DNA of 64,000 nucleotides. It comes from Microthrixaceae bacterium (GTDB lineage: Bacteria > Actinomycetota > Acidimicrobiia > Acidimicrobiales > Poriferisodalaceae). Positions within the stretch are counted from its first letter, which is position 1; each line of letters opens with the position of its first letter. The notes below the pieces were generated by a model. The model saw only the letters and a list, made by a program, of their open reading frames with translations. It was not told where the DNA came from and ran no database searches. Shown piece by piece: positions 28,613 to 45,605 of the stretch. Location: assembly GCA_011523825.1 (NCBI GenBank), contig WTFX01000027.1, positions 124,001 to 188,000 on the forward strand. The letters are read 5' to 3'. Both the position numbers and the translations under genes were made by a program.

Positions 28613-28690
28613 AGCATTGATCCATAACAGCGATATGCGGCAGCCGTGCTGCGGCATGCTGTCGACCGGCAACAGTGGGGGATGCGAGCT

Positions 28691-31213
28691 ATGAGTGACT
28701 TCCCGGCGCGGGCAGATTGTGTCGTCATCGGTGCAGGCATCGTCGGCAACTGCCTGGTCGGCCATCTCAGCGACCTCGGCTGGACCGACATCGTGCTGCT
28801 CGACAAGGGCCCGCTGCCCAATCCTGGCGGGTCCACCGGCCATGCGTCGAACTTCATCTTCCCCGTCGATCACTCCAAGGAGATCGTCGATCTCACCGTC
28901 GACAGCCAGCACCAGTACGAGGCACTCGGTTTGCAGAACACGTGCGGCGGCATCGAAGTGGCACGCAGCCCCGAGCGCATGGAGGAATTCCGCCGCCGCA
29001 TGACTTCAGCAACGTGCTGGGGCATCGAAGCGAGGTTGCTCACGGTCGACGAGGTCGTCGAGATGGTGCCCTTCATCGACCCCGACGTCATCTTGGGCGG
29101 GTTCTACACGCCGAGCGTCTCGGCCGTGGACTCACTGGAGACGGGCACACAGATGCGCCGGCGAGCCACCGATGCGGGGCACTTGCAGACGTTCGCCAAC
29201 ACCGAGGTGCTCGACATCGAGACCGTGGCCGGACCGAACCGGCCCCGCATCTCCGCAGTGGTAACCGACCGGGGCCGCATCGAGTGCGACACGGTGGCGA
29301 TCGCCTGCGGCGTCTGGAGCCCCAAGCTCGCCCAGATGGCCGGCGCCACCATCCCGCTGACGCCTGCCGTGCACCAGATGGTCGACGTCGGCCCGTTCGA
29401 CCTGCTCGTCGAGACCAACCAGGAACTGGCCTACCCGATCGTCCGCGACATGGACACCTTCTGCTACGAGCGCCAGTCGGCCGGCTCCATGGAGGTGGGC
29501 AGCTACGCCCACCGGCCGATTCTGCACCGTGTGGAGGACATCCCCTCCAACTCCGAAGCGGCGCTCAGCCCGACCGAGATGCCGTTCACGCCCGATGACT
29601 TCGACGAACAGCTCGAGCAGGCCATCGAACTGATGGAGTTTCTGGGTGACGGCGAGATCAAGTACGCCATCAACGGCCTGCTCTCGCTGACACCCGATGC
29701 CTCGCCGGTCTTGGGTCCGACACCAGAGGTCGAGAATCTGTGGTCGGTGGCGGCGGTGTGGGTCAAGGAAGGTCCTGGTGTGGGGCGCCTGATGGCCGAA
29801 TGGATGACCTACGGCTATCCCCGCATGACCGATCCGCACGGTTCGGACGTCACGCGCTTCTACCCCCAGGATCGCAACGTCATCCACATCGAGACCCGGG
29901 CCGACGAGCACTTCAACAAGACCTACGGCATCGTGCATCCTCGCGAGCAGTGGGCGACGCGCCGCAACCTGACCTGCGGCCCCGCCAAGGCCCGCACCGA
30001 TGACCTCGGCGCCTTCTACTTCGAGGCCGGCGGCTGGGAGCGTCCGCACTGGTACGAATCGAACGCTGACCTCGTCGAGCACCACGGCATCGAGGGCCGT
30101 ACCCACGAGTGGGACGCCCGCTGGTGGAGCCCCATCACCGATGCCGAGCACCTGCACCTGCGCGAGCACTGCGGGCTGGTGGACATCTCGCCGTTCCAGG
30201 TGTTCGAAGCATCAGGCCCAGGCGTGGTGCCCTACATCGAGAAGATGGTGGTCAACAAATGCGACCTACCGGTCGGGCGCTCGATCTACACCCCGGTGCT
30301 CACCGCCGACGGCGGCTTCCGTTCCGACCTCACCATCGTGCGCCTGTCCGAGGATCGCTTCCGCATAGCCACCGGCGCATTCGACGGCGGTCGCGACGAG
30401 TACTGGTTCCGCCACAACCTGCCCGCCGACGGCGTGCACTTCGAGAATCGCACCGAGGCGCTGGCCACCTACGGCGTGTGGGGTCCCAACGCCGTCGCAC
30501 TGCTGCAGACGCTGACCGAGACCGACCTGTCCCAGGAGGCCTTCGGCTATGGCCAGGTGCGCGATGGGTTGCTCTCGGGGATCCCGGTGCAGATGTTCCG
30601 CATCTCCTACGTGGGCGATGCAGGCTTCGAGATCTACTGCTCCACGAGCGCAGGGCTGGCTCTGTGGGACGCCATCACCCAGGCCGGGCGGGAATACAGC
30701 CTGCGACCGGTCGGTGCCGGGGTGTACGGCACCACCGGGCGACTCGAGAAGGGCTACCGGCTCATGGGCGCCGAACTCGAGAGCGACTACAACCCGGTCG
30801 AGGCGGGCCTGGCCCGGCCGCGGGTGAAGGCTGCCGATTTCATCGGCAAGGAGGCCTACCTGGCAGCCCGGGAAGCACCGCCCGCAGCCCAGCTCGCCAT
30901 GCTGCGCTTCGAGAGCCTGCGCTGTGCTGAGGGCTACGACCGCTTCCCGATGGGGGCAGGCAACGAGCCGGTGCTGACGCCAGCGGGGGAGCGGATCGTC
31001 GACTCGCACGGCAGGGTCAGCCGCGTCACCACCGCGGGCAACGCGCCATCGCTCGGCGCCTACCTGGCCATGGCCTACCTGCCGCCTGAGCTCGCCGCCG
31101 TGGGCACTGAGCTGTCGGTCATGTACCAGCATGAGCGGTATCCGGTGACAGTGGCGGCGACGGGTGCGAATCTCGCGCTGTTCGATCCCGACGACAGCCG
31201 CATGAAGGCCTGA
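28691..31213 (+). CDS. Dimethylglycine/sarcosine dehydrogenase-like FAD oxidoreductase with GcvT domain
   Basis: This is an 840-residue, three-part protein. The N-terminal FAD-binding DAO domain begins CVVIGAGIVGNC, with a candidate covalent-flavin His in GSTGHASN. A linker domain (FAO_M type) follows around residues 375-430, and the C-terminal GcvT/aminomethyl-folate domain has GLVDISPFQVFEASG and YVGDAGFEIYC. Such enzymes oxidatively demethylate dimethylglycine or sarcosine, hand the carbon to THF as methylene-THF, and pass electrons to ETF. Both ETF subunits follow directly. ATG 28691 is preferred over the 28646 extension because of the GGGG site before it. A tandem operator lies upstream. 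Confidence 0.9.
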   Translation: MSDFPARADCVVIGAGIVGNCLVGHLSDLGWTDIVLLDKGPLPNPGGSTGHASNFIFPVDHSKEIVDLTVDSQHQYEALGLQNTCGGIEVARSPERMEEFRRRMTSATCWGIEARLLTVDEVVEMVPFIDPDVILGGFYTPSVSAVDSLETGTQMRRRATDAGHLQTFANTEVLDIETVAGPNRPRISAVVTDRGRIECDTVAIACGVWSPKLAQMAGATIPLTPAVHQMVDVGPFDLLVETNQELAYPIVRDMDTFCYERQSAGSMEVGSYAHRPILHRVEDIPSNSEAALSPTEMPFTPDDFDEQLEQAIELMEFLGDGEIKYAINGLLSLTPDASPVLGPTPEVENLWSVAAVWVKEGPGVGRLMAEWMTYGYPRMTDPHGSDVTRFYPQDRNVIHIETRADEHFNKTYGIVHPREQWATRRNLTCGPAKARTDDLGAFYFEAGGWERPHWYESNADLVEHHGIEGRTHEWDARWWSPITDAEHLHLREHCGLVDISPFQVFEASGPGVVPYIEKMVVNKCDLPVGRSIYTPVLTADGGFRSDLTIVRLSEDRFRIATGAFDGGRDEYWFRHNLPADGVHFENRTEALATYGVWGPNAVALLQTLTETDLSQEAFGYGQVRDGLLSGIPVQMFRISYVGDAGFEIYCSTSAGLALWDAITQAGREYSLRPVGAGVYGTTGRLEKGYRLMGAELESDYNPVEAGLARPRVKAADFIGKEAYLAAREAPPAAQLAMLRFESLRCAEGYDRFPMGAGNEPVLTPAGERIVDSHGRVSRVTTAGNAPSLGAYLAMAYLPPELAAVGTELSVMYQHERYPVTVAATGANLALFDPDDSRMKA

Positions 31214-31223
31214 GGGCTCGCCG

Positions 31224-32006
31224 GTGCGCATCCTGGTTTGCGTGAAGCGGGTGCCTGCTGTCGGCTCGCGCATCAACGTCACCGACGACGGCCAGCAGGT
31301 CGACACTGCCCACTTGGGCTTCACCACCAGCCCGCACGAGGAATGCGCGTTGGAGGAAGCCGCCCAGATCATCGAGCGACTTGACGGCGATGACCATGCC
31401 GTCGTGGTGCTCACACTGGGTCCCGAGGCGTCCGCTGAGCAGCTGCGCTATGCGGCCAGCGTCGGCGGCAGCGAATTCGCACTGGTGATCGCAGATGGCG
31501 GCCTCGACTGGGATCCTCAGCGAACGGCAGTCGCGATCACCTCCGCCGTGCGGGAGCTCGAGGCCGGCGGGGGCCAGTTCGACCTGATCCTGTTCGGCAA
31601 CGAATCTGCCGACGGGGGCAACTTTCAGGTGGGCATCCGGGTCGCACGTGCGCTCGGACGGCCGATCGTGAACGGCATCAAGGGCATTGACCCCCATGAG
31701 CGAGGGTTCATCGCGCGCCGCGAGACCGACGCCGGCTACGAGGTGTACGAACTCGAGGCTCCCTGCGCGCTCGGTGTCAAGGAAGGCATCAACCTGCCTC
31801 GCTACCCGACCATGAAAGGGCGCCTCGCCTCGCGCAAGGCCCAGATCCAGGTGCTCGACTGCGCCGCCGATGCTGACGCCGGCGGGCAGTCGCGGATTCG
31901 GCTGCATCGCCCGCCCGAGCGTGCCAGCACCACGGTGCAGCTCGGTGACAGCGCCGCGGCGGCACCCGCGGTGGTGGACCTGCTGGACGAGTTGGGCGTG
32001 CTGTGA
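31224..32006 (+). CDS. etfB: Electron transfer flavoprotein beta subunit
   Basis: This is a 260-residue protein beginning MRILVCVKRVPAVGSRI, with the ETF-beta recognition region APCALGVKEGINLPRYPTMKGR near residue 180. It carries AMP and pairs with EtfA to accept electrons from flavoprotein dehydrogenases. It starts at GTG 31224, 10 bp after the dimethylglycine dehydrogenase gene, so its electron donor is almost certainly that enzyme. The stop overlaps the etfA start (GTGA, 32003-32006). An ETF-quinone oxidoreductase must be encoded elsewhere. Confidence 0.94.
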   Translation: MRILVCVKRVPAVGSRINVTDDGQQVDTAHLGFTTSPHEECALEEAAQIIERLDGDDHAVVVLTLGPEASAEQLRYAASVGGSEFALVIADGGLDWDPQRTAVAITSAVRELEAGGGQFDLILFGNESADGGNFQVGIRVARALGRPIVNGIKGIDPHERGFIARRETDAGYEVYELEAPCALGVKEGINLPRYPTMKGRLASRKAQIQVLDCAADADAGGQSRIRLHRPPERASTTVQLGDSAAAAPAVVDLLDELGVL

Positions 32007-33046
32007 GCGGCATTGCCGTCCTGGTCGACCACGACCGTGGTGTGCCCTCCGGCGGTGCCCTGGAGGCCCTGACTTCGGCCCGCGCGCTCGCCGCGGACAT
32101 GAGTGCCGACCTCGATGCCGTCATCCTGGGCGACGGCGACCTGTTCGATGCACATGGCGCGGACCTCGTTGCCATCTGCGCCGCCTACGGCGCCGCTGCG
32201 GTGCATTGCGGCCGCCATCAGTTCCTGGCCGACTACGGACCGGACGCCTGGGGTGCAGCACTCGCAGAGTTCGTCGAGACTGCGGCGCCTCTTGCCGTGG
32301 TTGCGGCAGGCACCGATCGGGGTGCCGAGGCCATGGCCCAGCTCGCTGCCCGCACCAACCTCCCGCTCGTCGCCAACTGCGTGAACGTGTCGCCCAAGGG
32401 CTCACCGGCTGATGCGTCGACTGCTCCCTCAGCCGGCGGGGCGTGGCATGTCACCCGCATCCAGTGGGGCGGCTCGCTGCTCGAGGACGTGACCCTCACC
32501 TCAACCCTGCCGCTGCTCACCATTGCGCAGCACTCCATCGAGGCGGAGCCACGCGAAGACGGTCCCCTCCCAGCGGCCGTTGCCGATTTCGAGCCCGACT
32601 TGGGGCCTGAAGTGCAGCAGACTCTGGTCCGCGATCGGGTGACCCTTGCCGAGGGCGTCACACTGTCCACCGCGCCGGTCGTGGTGTCGGGCGGCCGAGG
32701 CGTCGGCTCAGCAGACGGGTTTGCCCCGCTCGAGGAGCTTGCGGAACTGCTCGGCGGCCGCGTCGGCTGCTCGCGAGCGGTGACCAACAATGGCTGGCGC
32801 TCGCACGCAGACCAAGTCGGGCAGACCGGCACCCGAATCGCCCCGGAGATCTACATTGCCTGCGGCATCTCGGGCGCGATCCAGCATTGGGTCGGCGCCA
32901 TGGGCTCGAAGAACATCCTGGCGATCAACATCGACCCGGAGGCCAACATGGTCACCAAGGCGGGCTACGCCGTCATTGCCGACCTGCACGAGGTCGTGCC
33001 CGCGATCTGCGACGAGATCCGGCGGCGCCGCGACCGCCCCAGCTGA
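32003..33046 (+). CDS. etfA: Electron transfer flavoprotein alpha subunit
   Basis: This is a 347-residue protein whose C-terminal FAD-binding domain is unmistakable: VVSGGRGVG, then PLEELAELLGGRVGCSRA, QVGQTGTRIAPEIYIACGISGAIQH and the final AINIDPEANM. It binds FAD and completes the ETF dimer that carries electrons from dimethylglycine dehydrogenase to the quinone pool. Translation is coupled to etfB by a 4-bp overlap. It is the last gene of the operon, convergent with the IclR gene 10 bp away. Confidence 0.95.
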   Translation: MSGIAVLVDHDRGVPSGGALEALTSARALAADMSADLDAVILGDGDLFDAHGADLVAICAAYGAAAVHCGRHQFLADYGPDAWGAALAEFVETAAPLAVVAAGTDRGAEAMAQLAARTNLPLVANCVNVSPKGSPADASTAPSAGGAWHVTRIQWGGSLLEDVTLTSTLPLLTIAQHSIEAEPREDGPLPAAVADFEPDLGPEVQQTLVRDRVTLAEGVTLSTAPVVVSGGRGVGSADGFAPLEELAELLGGRVGCSRAVTNNGWRSHADQVGQTGTRIAPEIYIACGISGAIQHWVGAMGSKNILAINIDPEANMVTKAGYAVIADLHEVVPAICDEIRRRRDRPS

Positions 33047-34021: not shown

Positions 34022-36052
34022 ATGCCGCGGGGGACCGGTGCCCGACGAAACAGTGCACGATCGGGGGGGCGTCAGGCACCTCTCGCACGACTCGACACGC
34101 CCCTGGTACGCGACGGCGGTGTCTTGCGCCCGGCGAGCTGGGACGATGCGCTCGACCGGGCTGCATCGGGGCTGCGGGCGGCTACCCAGCAGCACGGTGC
34201 CGGCGGCGTCGGCATGTTCTCCTGCTCCAAGAGCACCAACGAGATGAACTACGCAGCCCAGAAGTTCATGCGGACGGTGCTGAAGTCCAACAACATCGAT
34301 TCCTGTAACCGCACCTGACACGCTCCGTCGGTCGTCGGTCTGGCGACAGTGTTCGGACTCGGGGGCGGAACGTGCTCCTACCAGGAGATCACTGAGACTG
34401 ATGTGATCCTGCTGTGGGGATCGAATGCCCGCGAGGCACACCCCATCTTCTTCCATCACCTGCTGCGGGGTCTCGACAACGGCGCGGCCATGTACGCCGT
34501 GGATCCCCGCCGCACCTCCTCAGCCGAGTTCGCCGACGTGTGGCTCGGCCTCGACGTCGGCACAGACATCGCGCTGTCCAACACGGTGGCTCGCGAGATC
34601 ATCGCCCGCCGAATGCACAACCAGTCCTTCATCGATCATGCGACAACAGGGTTCGATGCCTACGCAGAATCGGTAGAGCCGTTCACCCTCGACGAGGGCG
34701 AGCGGCTCACCGGAGTCCCGGCAGAGGCCATCGCGGAGATGGCTCACACGTACGCCACAGCCGACCGAGCGCAGATCCTGTGGACCCTGGGCATCACGGA
34801 GCACCACACGGCGGTCGAGAACGTGCTCTCGCTGTGCAACTTGGCGCTGCTGACCGGTCATGTCGGTCGGCGCGGTTCGGGCCTGGTGCCTCTGCGAGGC
34901 CAGAACAACGTGCAGGGCGGCGGCGACATGGGTGCTCTGCCTGATCGGCTGCCCGGGTTCCAACCGCTCACCGACCCGCAGGTCCGGGCTCGCTACGAGA
35001 GCACCTGGGGTTGCGAGCTGAATCCCGTCCCGGGAAAGCACCTCACCGCGATGTTCGACGCCATGGAAGCTGGAGAACTGCGGGCTCTCTATGTCATCGG
35101 GGAGAACCCGGCAGACTCCGAAGCCAATGTGGCGCACGCCCGCAAGCTGCTCGAAGGGCTGGATCTGCTGGTCGTTCAGGACATCTCGCTGACACGCACC
35201 GCGCGGATGGCTGATGTGGTGCTGCCCGCGGCCGCGGGTTGGGCCTCCAGCGAGGGCACTGTCACCTCCTCCGAGCGGCGTGTCCAGCGGGTGCGTGCCG
35301 CGGTGCCCCCCCAGGGTGACGCACGCGACGACGTGCACATCATCAGCGAGTTGGCAGCGCACATGGGCACCCAGTGGCCGGCCACGTCGGCGCAGGAACT
35401 GTGGGACGAGATGCGTTCGCTGTCGCCGCTGCATGGCGGCATGAGCTGGGAACGCCTCGAGGCGAGCGGCGGCCTGCAGTGGCCCTGCCCCCACGACGAC
35501 CATCCCGGCACCGAGTTCCTGCATAGCTGGCTCTGGGAACCCGACCTCGACGGTCGTGCGCCGGCACCGTTCTCGGTCGTCGTCCACCGTCCTCCCGCGG
35601 AGGCGTTGAGCGAGCAGTTCCCGTTGCGCCTGACCACCGGCCGGGTACTCGACTCATACAACACCGGCGCCCAGTCCGCCGGCTACTCCTCGCCGATCCG
35701 TTCCGGTGACGCCATCGAGATCAGCCCTGCCGACGCAGCGGATCTCGGGCTTGCCGAAGGCGACACCGTTCGTGTGAGCTCACCGCGGGGCTCGGTCGAT
35801 ATGCATGTGCATGTCACCGATCGCCTTCCGACAGGCCTGGTCTTCACGACGTTCCATTTTCCGGAGCTCGTGGATGCGAATCTGCTCACGAACGATGCCT
35901 GGGACGTCCGCAGCGGCACGGCGGAGTTCAAGGCAGCGGCTGTGCGCATCGACCCGTTGCCGGCTGCCACAGCCGCCACCGGCGGCACATTCGGCACAGC
36001 CGCCGCTGGCAGCACATCGGGCGTTGCAGCGGCAGGTGGCGCCGGTGGCTGA
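34022..36052 (+). CDS. Selenocysteine formate dehydrogenase, molybdopterin catalytic subunit (UGA at 34316 read as Sec)
   Basis: The gene is one 676-residue frame interrupted only by TGA at 34316-34318 (codon 99). The context NNIDSCNRT-U-HAPSVVGL is the active site of molybdenum/tungsten formate dehydrogenases, where Sec or Cys binds the metal and the next residue is His. An SECIS hairpin follows. The enzyme oxidises formate to CO2. Further family blocks are EITETDVILLWGSNAREAHP, LGITEHHTAVENVLSLCNLALLTG, GQNNVQGGGDMG and the C-terminal molybdopterin-dinucleotide domain (FPLRLTTGRVLDSYNTG). The usual N-terminal CxxCxxxC [4Fe-4S] domain is absent and is encoded instead by the gene at 37826. 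A GGGGAGGGG ribosome-binding site supports ATG 34022. The last ~30 residues are an odd Ala/Gly/Thr-rich tail. Confidence 0.9.
34316..34347 (+). other. Selenocysteine UGA codon and SECIS hairpin
   Basis: TGA (34316-34318) is followed by a 6-bp stem, GTCGTC (34331-34336) with GGCGAC (34342-34347), closing the pentaloop GGTCT (34337-34341). GGUCU is the apical loop of the E. coli fdhF SECIS recognised by SelB, and the 18-nt distance from UGA to the loop equals the fdhF spacing as I recall it. The hairpin lies inside the coding sequence, as in other bacteria. No selA, selB, selD or tRNA-Sec gene was seen in the window. Confidence 0.85.
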
Positions 36053-37829
36053 CCTGCACTTCTCCGATGCGGAGCCCACCGCATCGGAGCGACGAGCGGT
36101 GCTCGCTGCACTCAGCGTCACCTCCGAGCGCGATGGCGCCGTCGTTTTCGAGCATCCGCGCGTTGTGCGCGCAGGGATGCAACGGCGCAGGCAGCTGCGG
36201 CACCAGTTGCTGCCCGCACTGCACGCGCTCCAGCGCGAGGCCGGGTGGATCTCGCCGGGCGGCCTCAACTTCGTCGGCCGGACGCTGGGCGTGCCGCCGG
36301 CGGAGGCCTACGGCGTGGCCACCTTCTACGAGATGTTCCGCACCGAGGCCCCCGCCCACGAGCTCAGCGTCCGCCATGTCTGCGTCGATCCCATCTGCGC
36401 GCTGGCCGGCGCCGCGCCGCTGGCAGAGCACCTGCGCTCTCAGGGTCACGCCGTGCACGAGGGCCCATGCCTCGGGCAGTGCGAACGGGCACCGGCGACC
36501 TTCATCCAGGGCCGCCGCGAGCCCGACCGCGTCCCCGCAGACGGCAGCGGTCCTGACTCGCTGCTGGTGAGCCTCACGGCGACGACGCCCGAAGCGCCCA
36601 GCCTGCTGCGGCACATGATCGGAAGGGATCGGGACCACAGCGATCCCGTATCCATACAGGTGTACCGGGAGCGAGGTGGGGGAGCAGCCCTGGATGCAGC
36701 TCTGCGACTCGGAACCGACGAAGTCATCGCCCAGGTGACCGCAGCCGGGCTGTCGGGGCGCGGCGGGGCCGCCTTTCCGACTGGCATCAAATGGCGAGCT
36801 GTGGCCGACGGCGACGGCCCCAAGCACGTCGTGGCCAACATCGACGAATCTGAGCCGGGAACGTTCAAGGATCGGCTGCTCTGCGAGCTGGATCCCTTGG
36901 CCATCATCGAGTCCATCGCTGTGGCCGGCTTGACCGTCGGGGCCGAGCACGGCTGGATCTACATACGCGGCGAATACCCGCTGGCCACCCAACGCCTCCG
37001 GCACGCCATCGCGCAAGCCCGCAGCGCCGGCTGGCTTGGCGATGATGCGGCTGGGTCCGGGCAGCCATTCGACATCGAGTTGCGCAGGGGCGCCGGCGCA
37101 TACATCTGCGGCGAGGAAACCGCCCTGTTCAACTCGCTCGAAGGCTTCAGGGGGGAGCCCCGCAACAAGCCGCCGTTCCCCACCACCCACGGATTGTTCG
37201 GCCGCCCGACGGTGGTGAACAACCCAGAGACGCTGCTCAACGTGAACGAGATCCTGCGCATCGGTCCTGAGGCGTACCGCAGCGTCGGAACCGAGGGCTC
37301 GCCGGGCACGAAGCTGTTCTGCCTGTCCGGCCACGTCGGCCGGCCTGGGCTCTACGAAGCTCCTTTCGGTGTATCGTTGGGCGAGCTGCTGGAGCTGGCC
37401 GGAGGTGTGCAGGGCACGCTGGCCGCAGTGCTGCTCGGCGGCGCTGCGGGCAGCTTCGTCGGACCCGACGCGGAGGCGCTGCCGCTGTCCCTGGAAGACA
37501 CCCGTGCCGCCGGCACGACGCTCGGCTCGGGTCCAGTGATGGTCTTCAACGACACTGCCGACATGAGCGCCGTGATCGAGCGACTGGCCAAGTTCTTCCG
37601 CGACGAGTCCTGCGGACAGTGCGTTCCGTGCCGCGTCGGCACGGTCCGCCAGCACGAGCTGGTGACGCAGATCCGTCGGGCAGGCAGCCCGACGGAGCCT
37701 CAGCGTGAGCTGCTCGGCGACATCGCAGATGCCATGGGCGATGCTTCCATCTGCGGTCTCGGCCATACTGCGGCCTCGGCGGTGCTGTCGGGGATGCGGC
37801 TGGGCTTGCTGGAGGCTCAAGAGTCATGA
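36045..37829 (+). CDS. NAD-linked formate dehydrogenase diaphorase subunit, NuoE-NuoF fusion
   Basis: This is a 594-residue fusion of two proteins that are usually separate. The NuoE/FdsG-like part (about residues 1-165) has the [2Fe-2S] cysteines 113, 118, 142 and 146. The NuoF/FdsB-like part follows with the FMN/NADH motifs GLSGRGGAAFPTG and GAGAYICGEETALFNSLEG, and the [4Fe-4S] motif SCGQCVPCRVGT with a distal Cys in ICGLG. It should pass electrons from formate oxidation to NAD+. I chose GTG 36045, which overlaps the catalytic gene's stop by 8 nt; GTG 36036 is an alternative. The stop overlaps the next gene's start (ATGA). Confidence 0.92.
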   Translation: MADLHFSDAEPTASERRAVLAALSVTSERDGAVVFEHPRVVRAGMQRRRQLRHQLLPALHALQREAGWISPGGLNFVGRTLGVPPAEAYGVATFYEMFRTEAPAHELSVRHVCVDPICALAGAAPLAEHLRSQGHAVHEGPCLGQCERAPATFIQGRREPDRVPADGSGPDSLLVSLTATTPEAPSLLRHMIGRDRDHSDPVSIQVYRERGGGAALDAALRLGTDEVIAQVTAAGLSGRGGAAFPTGIKWRAVADGDGPKHVVANIDESEPGTFKDRLLCELDPLAIIESIAVAGLTVGAEHGWIYIRGEYPLATQRLRHAIAQARSAGWLGDDAAGSGQPFDIELRRGAGAYICGEETALFNSLEGFRGEPRNKPPFPTTHGLFGRPTVVNNPETLLNVNEILRIGPEAYRSVGTEGSPGTKLFCLSGHVGRPGLYEAPFGVSLGELLELAGGVQGTLAAVLLGGAAGSFVGPDAEALPLSLEDTRAAGTTLGSGPVMVFNDTADMSAVIERLAKFFRDESCGQCVPCRVGTVRQHELVTQIRRAGSPTEPQRELLGDIADAMGDASICGLGHTAASAVLSGMRLGLLEAQES

Positions 37830-38770
37830 GTTCCGGAAACGGCAGCACCACATCGCAGGTCACGGTCAGCATCGACGGACATGAGGTGACGGTGCCGCTG
37901 GGCCAGACCATCCTGGCTGCATGCACTGCTGCCGGTGTGGACACACCGACAATCTGCTGGGCGCCCAACCTCACGCCGGTGAACGTGTGTCGTGTCTGCG
38001 TGGTGGAGCTGGAAGGCTCCCGCACGCTCGTGCCTGCCTGTTCACGGCCCGCCGAAGACGGCATGCAGATCAGCACAGATTCTGAGCGGGTGCGCCACAG
38101 CAGGCGCATGGTGCTGGAGTTCCTGGACTCGGCCAATGATCTGTCCCAAGCGACAGAGATCACAGCGTGGTCCCAGCACTACGGTGCCGATGCGGGCCGT
38201 TATGGCTCTGCAGTGAATGACGCCGCCGAGGTCGAGATTTCCCAGGTGGACGATCCCGTGCGGATTCAGGACGATCTCTATATCCGCGCCTATGACCGTT
38301 GCGTGCTGTGCTACAAGTGCGTCGAGGCGTGCGGCGACGATGCCCAGCACACCTTTGCCATAGCGGTGGCGGGGCGAGGTTTCGACGCCCGTATCCGTAC
38401 CGAGTACGACGTCGAACTCCCGGAGAGCGCGTGTGTCTATTGCGGCAATTGCGTCGCGGTGTGTCCCACCGGTGCCTTGCAGTTCCGTACCGAGTTCGAT
38501 CTGCGGGCGGTGGGCGAGTGGCGACCCGATGACCAGACGGTCACCCGCACGGTGTGCTCGTACTGCGGAGTGGGATGCAATCTCGAGCTGCATACCCAGG
38601 ACGATCAGATCGTGAAGGTGACGTCGCCGGCAGATCATTCGGTGACGAGCGGCCACCTGTGCATCAAGGGCCGATTCGGCTGGCAGTACGTCCACGCGCC
38701 GGCCTTCGAACCGCCTGCGGCTGACACGTCCGCCTCAGAAGGCCCTTCTCCCGACAACACAGGGTCCTAG
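37826..38770 (+). CDS. Formate dehydrogenase iron-sulfur subunit carrying the detached N-terminal domains of the catalytic subunit
   Basis: This 314-residue protein is built like the N-terminus of a FdhA/FdsA catalytic subunit. A plant-type [2Fe-2S] domain uses Cys44, 55, 58 and 72. Two [4Fe-4S] motifs use Cys159/162/165/169 and Cys203/206/209/213. Finally there is a Mo-enzyme [4Fe-4S] domain with CSYCGVGC (244, 247, 251) and Cys279 in CIKGRFGWQYV. In ordinary enzymes that last domain leads straight into the sequence that opens the catalytic gene at 34022, so the chain is split exactly at this boundary. The NuoG-type His-Cys3 cluster motif is missing. It is the last enzyme gene of the operon. 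Confidence 0.9.
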   Translation: MSSGNGSTTSQVTVSIDGHEVTVPLGQTILAACTAAGVDTPTICWAPNLTPVNVCRVCVVELEGSRTLVPACSRPAEDGMQISTDSERVRHSRRMVLEFLDSANDLSQATEITAWSQHYGADAGRYGSAVNDAAEVEISQVDDPVRIQDDLYIRAYDRCVLCYKCVEACGDDAQHTFAIAVAGRGFDARIRTEYDVELPESACVYCGNCVAVCPTGALQFRTEFDLRAVGEWRPDDQTVTRTVCSYCGVGCNLELHTQDDQIVKVTSPADHSVTSGHLCIKGRFGWQYVHAPAFEPPAADTSASEGPSPDNTGS

Positions 38771-38776
38771 ACGCCG

Positions 38777-40162
38777 GTGTCGGCGGACGATCCGGCCCCA
38801 CCTGCCGGAGGCGGCGGCTCAGCAACAGCGCGCGTTTCCCGCCGCAATCGCGCCCTCCGGCGTGCTCGGGACATGGCGACCGAACACCTGCCGCGCATTG
38901 CACGTTCGGAGGCGCCCGAACCGCTCGTCGGCGGTCCCGCTCTCGCTTCGACGGCAGCTCGCAGCACAGCGCTGTTCGTGGGCATAGCGCTGCTGATGGC
39001 CGGTAACGGCCTGCAGAACACGCTGCTGGGAGTCCGGGCCGAATCAGAGGGGTTCGGATCCACGGTCGCCGGCCTGGTCATGGCGATGAACTTCGTGGGA
39101 TTCCTCGTGGGTGCCGCCGTCGCCCCGCATTTCCTGCGCCAGGTCGGCCACGTGCGGGTCTTCGCGGCTCTGGCTTCCGCCGGCAGCAGTGTCGTGCTGG
39201 TGCAGGCGGTGTTCGTCAACCCGGTGGTATGGGGTGTCGGCCGCTTCGGCTGGGGTGTCTGCTTTGCCGCACTGATCGTGGTGGCGGAAACCTGGCTCAA
39301 CGAATTGGCGACCAACGAGAACCGGGGCCGGATGCTGGCTCGCTACATGGTCATCACCATGGGCGCCATAGCGACCGGCCAGCTGCTGGTGGCCACCGCA
39401 GACACCGATGGCTTCGCGCTGTTCGCCGTGGTGTCGGTGATGGTCTCGCTGGCGTTGGTGCCGATGTCGCTGTCGGCCTCTGCCAATCCACCGGTGGTGG
39501 TGCCTGAGCGGGTCGGGCTGCGCACGCTGATGCAGACGGCACCCACCGGGGTCGTCGTGGCATTCCTGGTCGGGGCTGCGCTGGGTTCCATCTCGGCGAT
39601 CGGGCCGGTCTATGCGGCGTCGCGAGGGCTGACACCGATCCAAGTGGCGCTCTTTGTCGCAGCGCCGATGGTCGGCAGTCTCTTCGGGCAGGTGCCGCTG
39701 GGCCGTCTCTCCGATCGCGTTCCGCGGCGCATTGTCATCGTTGCCGCCGCCGTGATTGCGGGCAGCGCATGCGCACTGATGATGCTGCTCGATGAGGCGA
39801 CGCCGCTCGGTATCGCTGTCATGGGCCTCATGGGGATGTTCGCTTACCCGATCTACTCCATGGCGGTGGCACAGGCGAATGACTGGCTGCGAGACTCCCA
39901 GCGAGCCGGCGCCAGTGCTGTGATGGTGCGGATGAACGGCGTCGGCGCCACGGTAGGGCCGATCTGTGCGGCGATCGGCATGTCAGTGACCCTCAATGCC
40001 TTCTACGTGGTCATGACGGCAGCGCACATCTCCATCGCCACCTTCGTTGCCGGGCGCATGCTGCTGGTCGCCGGTCCGACGGTGGCGCAGCAGGGGACGT
40101 TCCTGCCGATTCCTGCCCGAGCCTCAGCAGCCGTGGCAACGCTGCTGCGGTGGCGGCGGTAG
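38777..40162 (+). CDS. MFS transporter in the formate dehydrogenase operon
   Basis: This is a 461-residue protein with a 60-residue charged cytoplasmic N-terminus and 12 hydrophobic segments. It resembles the YcaD-like subgroup of major facilitators (ALLMAGNGLQNTLLGVRA; WLNELATNENRGRMLARY in the central loop). The GTG start lies 6 bp after the iron-sulfur subunit stop, so it is probably co-transcribed with formate dehydrogenase. The context suggests uptake of a methylated one-carbon substrate or export of a pathway product, but the substrate is not evident from sequence. Confidence 0.85.
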   Translation: MSADDPAPPAGGGGSATARVSRRNRALRRARDMATEHLPRIARSEAPEPLVGGPALASTAARSTALFVGIALLMAGNGLQNTLLGVRAESEGFGSTVAGLVMAMNFVGFLVGAAVAPHFLRQVGHVRVFAALASAGSSVVLVQAVFVNPVVWGVGRFGWGVCFAALIVVAETWLNELATNENRGRMLARYMVITMGAIATGQLLVATADTDGFALFAVVSVMVSLALVPMSLSASANPPVVVPERVGLRTLMQTAPTGVVVAFLVGAALGSISAIGPVYAASRGLTPIQVALFVAAPMVGSLFGQVPLGRLSDRVPRRIVIVAAAVIAGSACALMMLLDEATPLGIAVMGLMGMFAYPIYSMAVAQANDWLRDSQRAGASAVMVRMNGVGATVGPICAAIGMSVTLNAFYVVMTAAHISIATFVAGRMLLVAGPTVAQQGTFLPIPARASAAVATLLRWRR

Positions 40163-41021: not shown

Positions 41022-42554
41022 CTACACGATGGCGTCGGGCTCTTCGGCTTTGCGCCGGGCGATGTAGTCGCACAGCTCGGCGTCGATTGCGTCGTCGATG
41101 GGCGGCGGCTCGTAGTCGGCGAGCATCTGCTTCATCAGGCGGTTGGCTCGCTGGGCCGCATCGAGCGAGCCCTCGTCGGACCATTGCTCGAAGCTGTTGT
41201 TGTCGGCAATCGACGATTGGTAGAAGGCGGTCTCGAAATTGGCCAGTGTGTGCGGATGCCCCAAGAAGTGGTCGCCGTGGGGGTTCGTCGTGAACGCCTC
41301 GACCGCCTGGCCGTTGTCGGACATGTCCACGCCCCTGGCGTACACCTCCATCATGCCGAGCTGGTCGGCGTCCATCAGCAGCTTCTCGTAGCTCAGCGTC
41401 AGCCCGCCTTCGAGCCAGCCCGCTGCATGCAGTACGAAGTTCACCCCTGCAGCCATCGTCGGCAGCAGCGTCGAGGCCGATTCGTAGGCCGCCTGTGCAT
41501 CAGGCGCCTTGGAAGATGTGAACTGCCCGCCCGACCGAAATGGCACGCCGACCCGTCGCGCCAGCGCGGCCATGACGTAGATCGCCAAGCCTGCCTCGGG
41601 TGTGCCGAACGTGGGCGCACCGGTGGCCATCGACATCGACGACGCGAACGTGCCGAAGATCACCGGCGCCCCCGGACGCACCAGCTGGCAGAACGCCATG
41701 CCGGACAGCGCTTCAGCCAGCGCCTGGGCCGCCAGCGCCGCCACCGTGACCGGTGACATGGCTCCGGCCAGTATGAACGGCGAGATCACGCATGCCTGGT
41801 TGTGCTGCGCGTACACCTCGGCCGCGCCAAGCATGGTGGCGTCCCAGCGCAGCGGCGACGATGCGTTGATGAGGCTGGTCAGCACGGTGCGATCGCTCAG
41901 GTCGCCGCCGAAGGCGATGCGGCAGAGTTCCACCGAATCGGCTGCGCGCTGGGCCGCCGTCACCGAGCCCATCAGCGGCTTGTCGCTGTAGCGCAAATGC
42001 GCGTACACCATGTCGAGGTGGCGTTTGTTGACCGGCACGTCCACCGGCTCACAGACCGTGCCGCCGCTGTGGTGAAGGTGGGGAAGCATCCAGGTCAGCT
42101 TCACCACCTGCTCGAAGTCGCCGAGAGTGGCGTACCGGCGCCCGGCATCGAGGTCTGTGACGAACGGCGAGCCGTAGTTGGGGGCGAACACGGTGGCGTC
42201 GCCGCCGATCGGCACTGAACGCGCCGGGTTGCGCGCATGCTGGAGATAGGTGGCCGGCGCCGTGGCCTGGACGATCTCGCGGCACATGCCCCGCGGGAAG
42301 CGCACCATCTCGCCGTCGACATCTGCGCCGGCGTCACGCCACAGCTCGAGCGCGCGGGGGAAGTCCTGGAAGGCGACTCCTACCTCGGACAGGATCGTCT
42401 CGGCGTTCTCCTCGATCTGGATCAGGCCATCGGCGTCGAGCACGTTCACCGGCGGCAGTGTCCGTTGTACGTGGGTGTTGAACGCCATATCTGCCGTTGC
42501 CCGCTGCGCCTGACGAGCCGCGCGGCCGCCTCCTCGCCGTCGTCGCTCGTTCAT
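41022..42554 (-). CDS. MttB-family corrinoid methyltransferase (non-pyrrolysine, MtgB-like)
   Basis: This is a 510-residue protein of the trimethylamine methyltransferase family. Typical blocks are DGLIQIEENAETILSEVGV, the long TIM-barrel core with DKPLMGSVTAAQRAADSVEL, and FGTFASSMSMATGAPTFGTPEAGL. The frame contains no in-frame amber codon, so pyrrolysine is not used; such homologues (MtgB and relatives) demethylate quaternary amines such as glycine betaine, proline betaine or carnitine. The methyl group would go to the corrinoid protein encoded upstream. The start overlaps the stop of the activator gene (ATGA, 42551-42554). With dimethylglycine dehydrogenase in the same island, glycine betaine is the best substrate guess. 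Confidence 0.88.
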   Translation of the reverse strand: MNERRRRGGGRAARQAQRATADMAFNTHVQRTLPPVNVLDADGLIQIEENAETILSEVGVAFQDFPRALELWRDAGADVDGEMVRFPRGMCREIVQATAPATYLQHARNPARSVPIGGDATVFAPNYGSPFVTDLDAGRRYATLGDFEQVVKLTWMLPHLHHSGGTVCEPVDVPVNKRHLDMVYAHLRYSDKPLMGSVTAAQRAADSVELCRIAFGGDLSDRTVLTSLINASSPLRWDATMLGAAEVYAQHNQACVISPFILAGAMSPVTVAALAAQALAEALSGMAFCQLVRPGAPVIFGTFASSMSMATGAPTFGTPEAGLAIYVMAALARRVGVPFRSGGQFTSSKAPDAQAAYESASTLLPTMAAGVNFVLHAAGWLEGGLTLSYEKLLMDADQLGMMEVYARGVDMSDNGQAVEAFTTNPHGDHFLGHPHTLANFETAFYQSSIADNNSFEQWSDEGSLDAAQRANRLMKQMLADYEPPPIDDAIDAELCDYIARRKAEEPDAIV

Positions 42555-44665
42555 GATTCCTCGCTCATCGGGGCCGCTCGCCGTCGTCGGGTGCGGTGGT
42601 GGGGACTCGAAGTTCTACGGGATGGGCGGGGCAGGTCCACCGCCGCAGCAAGCAGCGGGTTGGGTGCCGTGGCATGGGGGAGTGCCATGGCTGCCACGAA
42701 CAGCTCCTGGAATCGGGGCTCGGTGGCAGTCTCGATCTTGCGGATGCTGCGGACCACTTGCTCCATCTCGGCCCGCTGACTCCCCGACAGCAGCGCGCGC
42801 ACAGCTCCGGTGCCTGCTGCGTTGCCCACCGACCGCACCTCGTCCGGGTCGCAGTCGCCGATGAGTCCGAGCACCATCGCCCGTACCGGATCAATGTGCG
42901 CGCCGAAGGCTCCAGCGAGCTGCACACGATCAGGGGCCGCGATGCCGGCGTGCTCGCGCAGGAGGTCGATGCCGGCGCGCAGCGCCGCTTTCGCCAGCTG
43001 GATGGCTCGCACATCATTCTGGGTGATGGTGATCGTGGGTCCGTCCGTACCCTCGGGCGGCTCGTACAGCAGGAATGACGACGTCCGGCCATCGGAGATC
43101 ACACGCGACGCCCGCACGCCCTCTGCCGGGGATGCTGCAACAACCCCATCTGGCGACAGCACGCCGGCCAGATACATCTCGGCGATGACCTCGATGATGC
43201 CGGAGCCGCAGATTCCAGTGACACCTGCGGCCGCACTGCGAGCGCCGGCGGCGACTCGCCGTTCGACCGCCTCCGCGAAGCCGGGTTCGTCGGACCACAG
43301 GTCACAGCCGATGACACGCACCCGAGGAGTCCAGGTCGCCGGATCGATGCGCACGCGCTCGATCGCTCCAGGCGTCGCTCGCTGGCCGCAGCTGATCTGC
43401 GCGCCCTCGAATGCGGGCCCGGTCGGGCTCGACGCCGCCCACAGGCCGTCCGAGTTCCCCAGCACGATCTCGGCATTGGTGCCCACGTCCACCAGCAGGG
43501 TGACCGCTTCGTCGCGATGCGGCCCTCCAGCGAGCACTGCCGCTGCAGTGTCGGCACCCACATGACCGGCGATCGCGGGCGCGACGTAGACGCGAGCTGA
43601 TGGGCACGGAAGTTCCAGCTCCGGCCCGTCGACCTCGACACTGGCGTCGGTCGCCAAGGTGAACGGTGCCTGCCCGAGCGGGGTCGGGTCGATGCCGAGG
43701 GCAATGTGGACCATGATCGGATTTCCGACCAGCACCACCTCGAGCACGGCGTCTGGCTCAGCACCGGCATCGGAACACAGCTCGGAGATCAGCGCCGCGA
43801 GCGAGTCGCGGACGAGCGCAGTGAGCTCCCGGGCGCCGCCGGGGTTCATCATCACGTAGGAGACCCGGCTCATCAGGTCCTCGCCGAGGCGGATCTGCGG
43901 GTTCATGCGGCCTGCGGAAGCCAGCACGTCACCGCTGTGAAGATCAACTAGGTGGCCCGCGATCGTGGTGGAGCCGATGTCGATCGCAACGCCGAGTGCC
44001 GCCGTCGCGACGCCAGGCCATACCGCCGTCACCATGCCGGTGCGATTGGGGCGCTCAGGTCCGCTCCAGCGAACGGCAACCGTGACCAGCCTGCCACCAG
44101 TGTCGTCGGGCGAGCCGGCAGCGACTGACGCGTGGAGTCCCGCAAGTGCCCCGGGCAAGATGCCGGCCAGATGAACGCCCCATTCGTCGGCCACGCAGTC
44201 GATCACGACCTGCGCCAGCCCGCGGCGCTCGTCGAGCGTCGGCGGCGGCACGGTGACGGCATGCAGCGTTGCCAGCGGGTCGAGCGCTATGTCGCCCACG
44301 TCGACCGTCTTGCGCACCACCGGACCGTGCAGCTGGCTCTCCGGCGGCACATCCACTACGACGTCGGCCTGCACACGCGCCTGGCAGCCCAGCCGGGCCC
44401 CCGCATGCAGCGGGCGTCGGCCCTCATATGCGGCTTCGGTAGCGCTGGGCGAGCTGAGCGATTCGGAGCCAGCAGTGATGGCCCACTTGGGAAACGAACC
44501 CACTGACGGCACGACCTGGCAGCGGCCGCAGATGCCACGCCCACCGCACACGCTGTCGAGATCCACGCCGAGTTCACGAGCGGCATCGAGCACCGTGGTG
44601 CCCGCGCTCACGTTGCCAGCGCGTCCCGCCGGGGTGAACACCACCCTGACCGCGGCCGTCGGCAC
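42551..44665 (-). CDS. RACo-type ATP-dependent reductive activator of corrinoid proteins
   Basis: This is a 704-residue protein. An N-terminal plant-type [2Fe-2S] domain uses Cys40, 46, 49 (CGGRGICGRC) and 94, a linker follows, and then a DUF4445/ASKHA ATPase with VAIDIGSTTIAGHLVDL, LLVDVGTNAEIVLGN and GICGSGIIEVIAEM. RACo-type enzymes re-reduce inactive Co(II) corrinoid to Co(I) using ATP, which methyltransferase systems need. I chose GTG 44665 because the upstream gene's TGA (44678-44676) is followed by GGAG and then this GTG at proper spacing; the frame to 44806 overlaps that gene. It has a basic Ser/Arg-rich C-terminal tail. Confidence 0.9.
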   Translation of the reverse strand: MPTAAVRVVFTPAGRAGNVSAGTTVLDAARELGVDLDSVCGGRGICGRCQVVPSVGSFPKWAITAGSESLSSPSATEAAYEGRRPLHAGARLGCQARVQADVVVDVPPESQLHGPVVRKTVDVGDIALDPLATLHAVTVPPPTLDERRGLAQVVIDCVADEWGVHLAGILPGALAGLHASVAAGSPDDTGGRLVTVAVRWSGPERPNRTGMVTAVWPGVATAALGVAIDIGSTTIAGHLVDLHSGDVLASAGRMNPQIRLGEDLMSRVSYVMMNPGGARELTALVRDSLAALISELCSDAGAEPDAVLEVVLVGNPIMVHIALGIDPTPLGQAPFTLATDASVEVDGPELELPCPSARVYVAPAIAGHVGADTAAAVLAGGPHRDEAVTLLVDVGTNAEIVLGNSDGLWAASSPTGPAFEGAQISCGQRATPGAIERVRIDPATWTPRVRVIGCDLWSDEPGFAEAVERRVAAGARSAAAGVTGICGSGIIEVIAEMYLAGVLSPDGVVAASPAEGVRASRVISDGRTSSFLLYEPPEGTDGPTITITQNDVRAIQLAKAALRAGIDLLREHAGIAAPDRVQLAGAFGAHIDPVRAMVLGLIGDCDPDEVRSVGNAAGTGAVRALLSGSQRAEMEQVVRSIRKIETATEPRFQELFVAAMALPHATAPNPLLAAAVDLPRPSRRTSSPHHRTRRRRAAPMSEES

Positions 44666-44675
44666 CAGGGCTCCG

Positions 44676-45605
44676 TCAGCCGGTGCGAGCGCGGCGGCCG
44701 CCCCGTCGTCGGCCTCCAGCTGCGGCCCGGCCGTTCGCTGGCGTGTCCTCGCCCATGGCGCTGCGGTCGCGGTGCTCGGCAATCCATGCGGCGCAATTCG
44801 TGTCATTGCCTGCGAGCACGTCGCCGGCCATGACCGCCGCCTTCACGTCGGCGTGGAGCGGGTTCATGATGGCAGAAGTCATGCCGGCACCGATGGCCAT
44901 GGCCAGGAACGTGCCAGTGACCACGTGTCGATTGGGCAGGCCGAAGCTGACATTCGACGCACCGCAGGTGGTGTTGACGCCGAGTTCGCTGCGCAGTCGC
45001 TGCACGAGCTGGAACACCTGCCGACCCGCCGTTGGCATAGCACCGATGGGCATCACCAGCGGATCCACCACCACGTCGTGCGACGGGATGCCGTAGTCGG
45101 CGGCAGCGCTCACGATGCGCCTGGCCACCTCAAATCGGACATCGGGGTCTTCGCTGATGCCGGTCTCGTCGTTGGATATGGCCACGACAGCGGCGCCGGC
45201 GCGTGCAACCAGCGGCAGCACTCGCTCCATGACCTCCGCCTCGCCAGTGACTGAGTTGATGAGCGGCTTGCCGACGTAGGCATCGATGCCGGCCTCGAGT
45301 GCTTCAATGATCGAGGAGTCGATGCTGAGCGGCACGTCGGTGACCGACTGCACGAGCTTGACAGCCGAGGCCAGCAGCGCGGGCTCGTCGGCAAGCGGCA
45401 CTCCGGCGTTGACGTCCAGCATGTGAGCTCCCGCGGCCACCTGCGCCAGGGCATCGGCCTCCACCCGGCTGAAATCGCCCTCCTTCATCTCCGCGGCCAG
45501 CAGCTTGCGGCCCGTGGGGTTGATGCGTTCGCCGATCATCACGAACGGCCGATCGAAGCCGATCACGACTTCCCGGGTAGCGGAGCTGATGACGGTGTCG
45601 GTCAC
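44676..45605 (-). CDS. Pterin-binding methyltransferase (methylcorrinoid:tetrahydrofolate, MtgA-like)
   Basis: This 309-residue pterin-binding TIM barrel is of the MetH-domain/AcsE type. Signatures are VMIGERINPTGRKLLAAEM, HMLDVNAG, LSIDSS, INSVTGE and the late TTCGASNVSFGLPNR. It should move the methyl group from the methylated corrinoid protein to tetrahydrofolate, feeding the MTHFR-family enzyme and Fhs. The GTG start (45605) overlaps the DUF1638 stop. The C-terminal 25 residues are Arg/Gly-rich and not conserved in the family. Confidence 0.9.
   Translation of the reverse strand: MTDTVISSATREVVIGFDRPFVMIGERINPTGRKLLAAEMKEGDFSRVEADALAQVAAGAHMLDVNAGVPLADEPALLASAVKLVQSVTDVPLSIDSSIIEALEAGIDAYVGKPLINSVTGEAEVMERVLPLVARAGAAVVAISNDETGISEDPDVRFEVARRIVSAAADYGIPSHDVVVDPLVMPIGAMPTAGRQVFQLVQRLRSELGVNTTCGASNVSFGLPNRHVVTGTFLAMAIGAGMTSAIMNPLHADVKAAVMAGDVLAGNDTNCAAWIAEHRDRSAMGEDTPANGRAAAGGRRRGGRRARTG

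Follow-up and report, generated by a model that had tools for sequence, protein, structure and literature searches.

A selenocysteine formate dehydrogenase encoded in an Acidimicrobiia genome, with its alpha chain probably made as two proteins

In the enzymes that hold molybdenum or tungsten on a bis-pyranopterin guanine dinucleotide (Mo/W-bisPGD enzymes), the [4Fe-4S] cluster next to the pterin lies, to our knowledge, always on the catalytic chain. The formate dehydrogenases (FDHs) with a NuoE/NuoF diaphorase partner include FdsGBACD of Rhodobacter capsulatus (Protein Data Bank (PDB) entry 6tg9), in which FdsA is one chain with a His-Cys3 [4Fe-4S] cluster and the G and B subunits are separate, and MeFDH1 of Methylorubrum extorquens (7vw6, 8j83), a tungsten enzyme with cysteine at the active site, a single alpha chain and a fused NuoE-NuoF beta subunit. 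Here we describe an FDH operon in a 64,000-nucleotide stretch of DNA (“the window,” i.e., the whole stretch analyzed) from contig WTFX01000027.1 of a Microthrixaceae bacterium, in which the alpha chain appears to be made as two proteins, a metal half (P0001) and a cluster half (P0003), encoded on either side of a NuoE-NuoF fusion. The source genome is 3.3 Mb and 95% complete, and its closest named relatives are Acidimicrobiia metagenome-assembled genomes (MAGs).

A cluster of matching subunit lengths has been reported before. FDH3 of Actinomycetospora chiangmaiensis DSM 45062 comprises FdhA3 (640 aa, with selenocysteine (Sec)), FdhB3 (614 aa) and FdhC3 (316 aa) (PMC7176365, 2020; this and the other reports given by PMC number are cited from the accessible part of their text). 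All three proteins were found in the proteome, 3.1-, 2.8- and 2.2-fold up, respectively, on formate-yielding 2-hydroxyisobutyric acid, and formate removal required selenite, with tungstate having no effect (PMC7176365). Two more Sec-FDHs are present in this strain (PMC7176365), so the need for selenium cannot be credited to FDH3 in particular. The likeness to our operon lies in the three subunits and the Sec alpha of an enzyme termed cytoplasmic and NAD-dependent, whose subunits were induced together (PMC7176365). Open reading frame (ORF) lengths in Actinomycetospora and Pseudonocardia relatives are similar to those of the FDH3 subunits, and two related Actinomycetospora genomes (loci L132 and L151) carry the split operon. 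The accessible text of PMC7176365 gives lengths and expression, with no mention there of an alpha subunit without its cluster domain or of an FdhC that carries one.

Subunits of such oxidoreductases are often split or fused, according to the accessible part of PMC10478512. In Euglena gracilis complex I (8iuf, chain 1A), the NuoG homologue NDUFS1 is likewise divided between two chains, one with the Fe-S part and one with the molybdopterin-like part. This is a separate break within the same protein superfamily, and it falls inside the Rossmann-like subdomain II rather than at the [4Fe-4S] boundary, in a eukaryotic complex without a formate site (PMC10884005). A Sec catalytic subunit is syntenic with NuoEFG homologues in Sulfobacillus, as here; splitting is not stated in the accessible portion of that report (PMC4378227). 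Our literature searches, which covered few subscription journals, found no description of an FDH split at the [4Fe-4S]/molybdopterin boundary; PMC5736913 proved irrelevant to the question. A preliminary description, made from the window alone, knew of no described FDH with this arrangement; this stands for the split itself in the literature searched, but not for the cluster as such, because one of matching subunit lengths had already been reported and shown to be expressed (PMC7176365).

The two halves tile one alpha chain (coordinates in Table 1). P0001 has only the Molybdopterin (residues 23-446) and Molydop_binding (535-639) Pfam domains and no Molybdop_Fe4S4 (Mo4Fe4S) domain, bearing out the claim that the molybdopterin subunit lacks its N-terminal [4Fe-4S] domain. 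The missing domain was correctly placed at the C-terminus of the protein encoded at 37826, behind a [2Fe-2S] and two [4Fe-4S] clusters: P0003 consists of Fer2_4 (10-86), Fer4_7 (158-217) and Molybdop_Fe4S4 (238-290), and the chain ends 24 residues on. Against the 672 positions of TIGR01591 (Fdh-alpha), P0003 matches 1 to 50 (54.9 bits) and P0001 matches 52 to 672 (629.8 bits), for a plain sum of 684.7 bits that is indicative only; on R. capsulatus FdsA (6tg9_A) the P0003 profile spans residues 25-304 and that of P0001 residues 305-931. The chains therefore end and begin at the same family position, as had been proposed. Among 34 intact-type rows of the phylum, the 32 with both half-profile matches listed (two had no listed partner) all show the profiles abutting within 3 bases, with zero gap in 25, by comparison of coordinates by eye. 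P0001 does not combine Mo4Fe4S and metal domains in the way of an FdhF-type single chain; its molybdopterin domains are of the FDH type and carry the active-site Sec/Cys-His and Arg, and its operon includes the NuoE/NuoF diaphorase partner of Fds- and MeFDH1-type FDHs.

P0001 starts at the “RLTTPLVR” stretch of the FDH family, and its reading frame has a stop 13 codons 5' of the ATG at 34022, so that no fused N-terminus is hidden upstream. The three genes overlap: the GTG at 36045, picked as the NuoE-NuoF start because of this overlap, precedes the upstream stop at 36050-36052, and the ATG at 37826 overlaps the stop at 37827-37829. The top PDB relatives of the fusion are NAD-dependent FDH beta subunits and HydB/NuoF. 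That the N-terminal half is encoded last is correct; the gene order is “permuted” only in a relative sense, in that diaphorase followed by cluster half is the fdsG-B-A order, with the metal half at the front. A promoter and terminator scan gave no result. The gene for a major facilitator superfamily (MFS) transporter (38777-40162) starts 6 bases past the cluster half and may share its transcript.

The arrangement recurs in a widespread family and is not peculiar to the source genome. At least 538 relatives, not all of which need be split, turned up among 84,980 species genomes, and we examined the best 80. The complete operon in the order metal half, NuoEF, cluster half is present at 63 of the 80 loci (62 by script, plus L159, with genes overlapping by 8 bases). 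Of the other 17, fourteen start where a contig edge cuts or adjoins the operon, and three (L129, L137 and L140) belong to genomes with the metal gene at another site; in the Acidimicrobiia loci L129 and L137 it is on the same contig, some 7 to 11 kb from the NuoEF and cluster-half genes (distance measured by hand). Between or beside the split genes of these two loci are ORFs that, as read from sequence, resemble Rieske-type proteins and the carbon monoxide dehydrogenase medium subunit. Going by record titles, split loci were found in Acidimicrobiia, Pseudonocardiaceae, Nitriliruptorales, Acidobacteriota, Chloroflexota, Bacillota, Eremiobacterota and Dormiibacterota, including the isolates Actinomycetospora succinea DSM 45775 and Pseudonocardia ammonioxydans. 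The cluster half is present at ≥59% identity in 33 of 61 genomes (the source genome counted; one copy is cut by a contig edge). No order besides metal half, NuoEF, cluster half was seen in 32 neighborhoods examined, with the metal gene missing in three and partial in one where the contig ends. In a further set of split loci, those with all three genes begin with the metal match, and the cluster match starts about 1.8 to 2.0 kb past its end.

The metal domain was matched at 143 loci, which we sorted into 104 split, 33 intact and 6 cut off; one of the 104 (L100) starts at a contig edge and is unjudgeable, which leaves 103, same-genome duplicates included. The Mo4Fe4S domain is absent from the metal chain in these 103 and present in 33 of 33 intact comparators. 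Identity to P0001 is at least 58% for all split loci and at most 51% for all intact ones. Across 296 genomes of the phylum, a split-type metal half is found in 33 (≥931 bits; next score, 842) and a split-type cluster half in 34 (≥439 bits; next, 249). Both halves occur in 31 genomes, the metal half alone in two (G328 and G295) and the cluster half alone in three (G211, G264 and G189), and all five single-half genomes are <90% complete and in ≥210 contigs. Where an Actinomycetota genome at least 90% complete has either half, it has both (23 of 23, listings read by eye). In the source genome, at its 95% completeness, no intact FDH alpha chain was found: the next-best P0001 match is 28% identical, and the five other molybdopterin-type ORFs scanned are either NuoG or score ≤268 bits against the TIGR01591 cut-off of 666. 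A second intact fdhA, which would have spoken against the preliminary description, was thus looked for and not found. A plasmid collection gave 347 matching records, all at <60% identity; most of the 30 listed carry an FDH alpha chain annotation or none, and split forms were not sought among the remainder.

In a 41-row alignment of metal halves, U99, H100 and R292 are invariant, residues whose catalytic roles we presume from E. coli FdhF, and all 41 match TIGR01591 at E≤1e-100, the best E-value among the three families listed. All 61 cluster halves aligned share the same 16 cysteines (by position, one [2Fe-2S] and three [4Fe-4S] clusters) and Lys281, and the chain stops 5 to 38 residues past the CxKGRF motif (median 11, 80 loci). 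The His-Cys3 [4Fe-4S] motif of the FdsA type is absent from all 61 cluster halves and is also unmatched, or only spuriously matched, in 10 of 18 intact comparators; the N-terminal part of the MeFDH1 alpha chain lacks this cluster as well, by alignment. The AlphaFold2 (AF2) model of the metal half has a confident fold, with a predicted local distance difference test score (pLDDT) of 81.7, and compares with MeFDH1, NapA, FdhF and FdsA at VIA Z scores of 40 to 44 (43 to 44 for MeFDH1; 40.2 for 6tg9_A residues 307-936).

The reading frame of P0001 is open if an in-frame TGA is decoded as Sec; neither this codon nor the three-gene overlap was part of the preliminary description. The genome has the complete machinery, all above cut-offs: tRNA-Sec (66.3 bits; anticodon tca by ARAGORN), selA (389.9), selB (275.2) and selD (359.8). 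RNAalifold, run on 82 different sequences, predicts a six-pair stem with a GGUCU loop 3' of the UGA, in the manner of a selenocysteine insertion sequence (SECIS). Codon choice in the hairpin is strict: all 103 sequences use GGT and CTG, and 95% use GTC, where the median for 112 invariant sites of 4- or 6-fold degeneracy is 51%. E. coli fdhF shares the GGTCTG of the hairpin. Rfam at its gathering threshold found nothing in the window; the SECIS came from sequence comparison. In-frame UGA, SECIS and Sec machinery, the marks of a bacterial selenoprotein, are all present. A script extracted 92 sites, each with the UGA behind CNRT; as TGA after CNRT was what it selected for, the count carries no information on variants. 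Two Actinomycetota genomes of about 9 Mb (L202 and L203) have the same split operon with a Cys codon in place of Sec and GGACTG in the loop. The selD gene of the source genome (L165, G000:C28:31140-32090) itself has one in-frame TGA, and SelD is probably a selenoprotein too.

Table 1. Features of the split FDH operon (positions in the window)
Feature	Position	Strand	Evidence
FDH alpha metal half, molybdopterin (bis-molybdopterin guanine dinucleotide (bis-MGD)) subunit, P0001	34022..36052 (coding to 36049)	+	Pfam, TIGR01591, alignment, AF2
In-frame TGA, putative selenocysteine (Mo ligand)	34316..34318	+	P0001 frame open if this codon is read through; comparison
SECIS-like hairpin, GGUCU loop, directly 3' of UGA	34331..34347	+	RNAalifold, codon conservation
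FDH beta, NuoE-NuoF fusion (thioredoxin-like [2Fe-2S], flavin mononucleotide (FMN)/NADH domain, SLBB, [4Fe-4S])	36045..37829	+	Pfam
FDH alpha cluster half, P0003: [2Fe-2S], two [4Fe-4S] and C-terminal Molybdop_Fe4S4	37826..38770 (coding to 38767)	+	Pfam
Missing Mo4Fe4S domain, Cys244/247/251/279 and Lys281	38537..38695	+	PF04879, 79.1 bits, genome search

We consider it very likely that the operon encodes a cytoplasmic, NAD+-linked selenocysteine FDH with its alpha chain made as two proteins and the cofactor-side cluster supplied in trans. The conserved sequence split, the three-gene operon, the Sec machinery and the joint occurrence of both halves are directly observed; from them we infer how the subunits would assemble, the electron path and the placing of the trans cluster beside the bis-MGD. 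The metal half would hold the bis-MGD and the Sec ligand, and the cluster half the [2Fe-2S] cluster, two ferredoxin-type [4Fe-4S] clusters and the C-terminal [4Fe-4S] domain that elsewhere begins the metal chain. Docked onto the metal half, this domain would bring its cluster and Lys281 beside the pterin. Electrons would then pass from formate to Mo, to the trans cluster, to the two [4Fe-4S] clusters, to the [2Fe-2S] and NuoEF clusters, and through FMN to NAD+, with the same diaphorase logic as in FdsGBACD. A further suggestion, which we regard as doubtful, is that throughout the clade the domain covering the pterin, with the adjacent cluster, belongs to the electron-transfer subunit. The bis-MGD would then sit at a subunit interface, and the metal half might be loaded while open and closed when the cluster half docks, as an assembly checkpoint; if so, metal half and diaphorase could be exchanged as modules.

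Several points weigh against the two-protein enzyme. P0001 alone scores below the equivalog cut-off of TIGR01591 (666.25 bits) and is formally no member of the family, as is to be expected if 51 columns sit on another chain. AF2 models the cluster half with low confidence (pLDDT 67.8), with residues 281-314 below 50 and blocks across the Mo4Fe4S domain running from 93 down to 43; at this confidence the model says little about docking, and we left it out of that argument. Its top Foldseek match is FdsA, and VIA matches it to NuoG-like chains (Z 13 to 17). Finally, FDH3 of A. chiangmaiensis is assigned to the split family by its subunit sizes, its Sec and its close relatives, not by sequence (PMC7176365, accessible part). 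With these qualifications, the observation in the preliminary description is confirmed and its interpretation supported.

An alternative concerns how the split arose. Rather than through the break of an FdsA-type chain, it may have come about when a HoxU-like diaphorase subunit took over the [4Fe-4S] domain from an FdhF-type enzyme of one chain, which we hold to be a serious contender with somewhat under an even chance; it bears on the origin of the enzyme, not on its working. In a tree of the metal domain (36 split and 24 intact rows, hand-chosen), the split rows form one side of a branch with a Shimodaira-Hasegawa-like approximate likelihood ratio test (SH-aLRT) support of 100, and their sister clade, also at 100, consists of single chains of the FdhF type, about 712 aa long, which carry a Mo4Fe4S domain themselves but lack the ferredoxin part. 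These nearest intact relatives are as a domain transfer would have it, and the locus of one of them (L205) shows no diaphorase match; on the other hand, deeper outgroups are of the FdsA type, and the FdhF type might itself have lost a ferredoxin part. In a tree of 31 cluster halves and 18 intact N-termini, the former also stand together as a single group, with long branches flagged. In a tree of the Mo4Fe4S domain, the trans domain groups with the FdhF-type sisters (support 99), again in favor of transfer, but this tree has a long branch and only 56 columns. It fits a shared descent of both halves and is too short to settle between an FdsA-type break and domain transfer.

Several NAD-linked FDHs are reversible, and the enzyme might mainly reduce CO2 to formate, or use another substrate, sequence giving the substrate without certainty. 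We find this unlikely: the TIGR01591 matches of all 41 metal halves, the neighboring genes for methyl-group oxidation and the selenite-dependent formate removal in A. chiangmaiensis (PMC7176365) all speak against it. Genes for methylated-amine and one-carbon (C1) metabolism flank the operon at 28646-33046 and 41022-44806. On the 5' side are a flavin adenine dinucleotide (FAD) oxidoreductase/aminomethyltransferase (a GcvT fusion, dimethylglycine or sarcosine dehydrogenase-like) and EtfBA. On the 3' side are transporters of the MFS and, by a label read from sequence, drug/metabolite transporter (DMT)-like types, followed by an MTTB methyltransferase and a RACo-type activator; a divergent neighbor encodes an IclR regulator. 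An NAD-linked FDH would suit this neighborhood, because methyl-group oxidation yields formate. The enzyme would oxidize formate, probably for the adjoining methylated-amine/C1 genes. Its metal would be molybdenum rather than tungsten.

The metal half could also work alone or with another partner, the Mo4Fe4S domain on the cluster half being a leftover. Some Fe-S half proteins, such as HoxU, have no metal half. The distant metal genes of L129 and L137 would agree with this, as would the N7 cluster of some NuoG, described as isolated (PMC10478512, accessible part). We judge it improbable: a leftover domain would not be expected to keep its four cysteines among 16 invariant ones, together with Lys281, in 61 of 61 rows, and the co-occurrence of the halves across genomes and the gene overlaps in the window speak against it.

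An assembly or sequencing artifact, or a pseudogene broken by the TGA, has next to no chance of being right, for although there is one in-frame TGA and the genome is MAG-like, the Sec machinery is complete, the hairpin codons are conserved, TGA follows CNRT at 92 of 92 script-extracted sites, and the same split in dozens of genomes (103 judged loci, with independent assemblies and isolate genomes among them), together with the stop upstream of P0001, excludes the assembly error or hidden N-terminus that had been named as a possible refutation.

The breadth of the family and the earlier report of FDH3 (PMC7176365, accessible part) lower the novelty of the finding. The new element would be to recognize that an entire clade of Mo-bisMGD enzymes takes its pterin-side cluster from another chain. 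Such a natural dissection of FDH would help in asking whether the proximal cluster serves catalysis or only the exit of electrons, and the split enzyme would be useful for the study of bis-MGD insertion and for the engineering of formate and CO2 catalysts. Annotation is likely to fail on these genes, the metal half having an in-frame stop and a sub-cut-off FDH score and the cluster half resembling a fragment of NuoG or HoxU, and counts of formate metabolism in Acidimicrobiia, Acidobacteriota and Chloroflexota may for this reason be too low.

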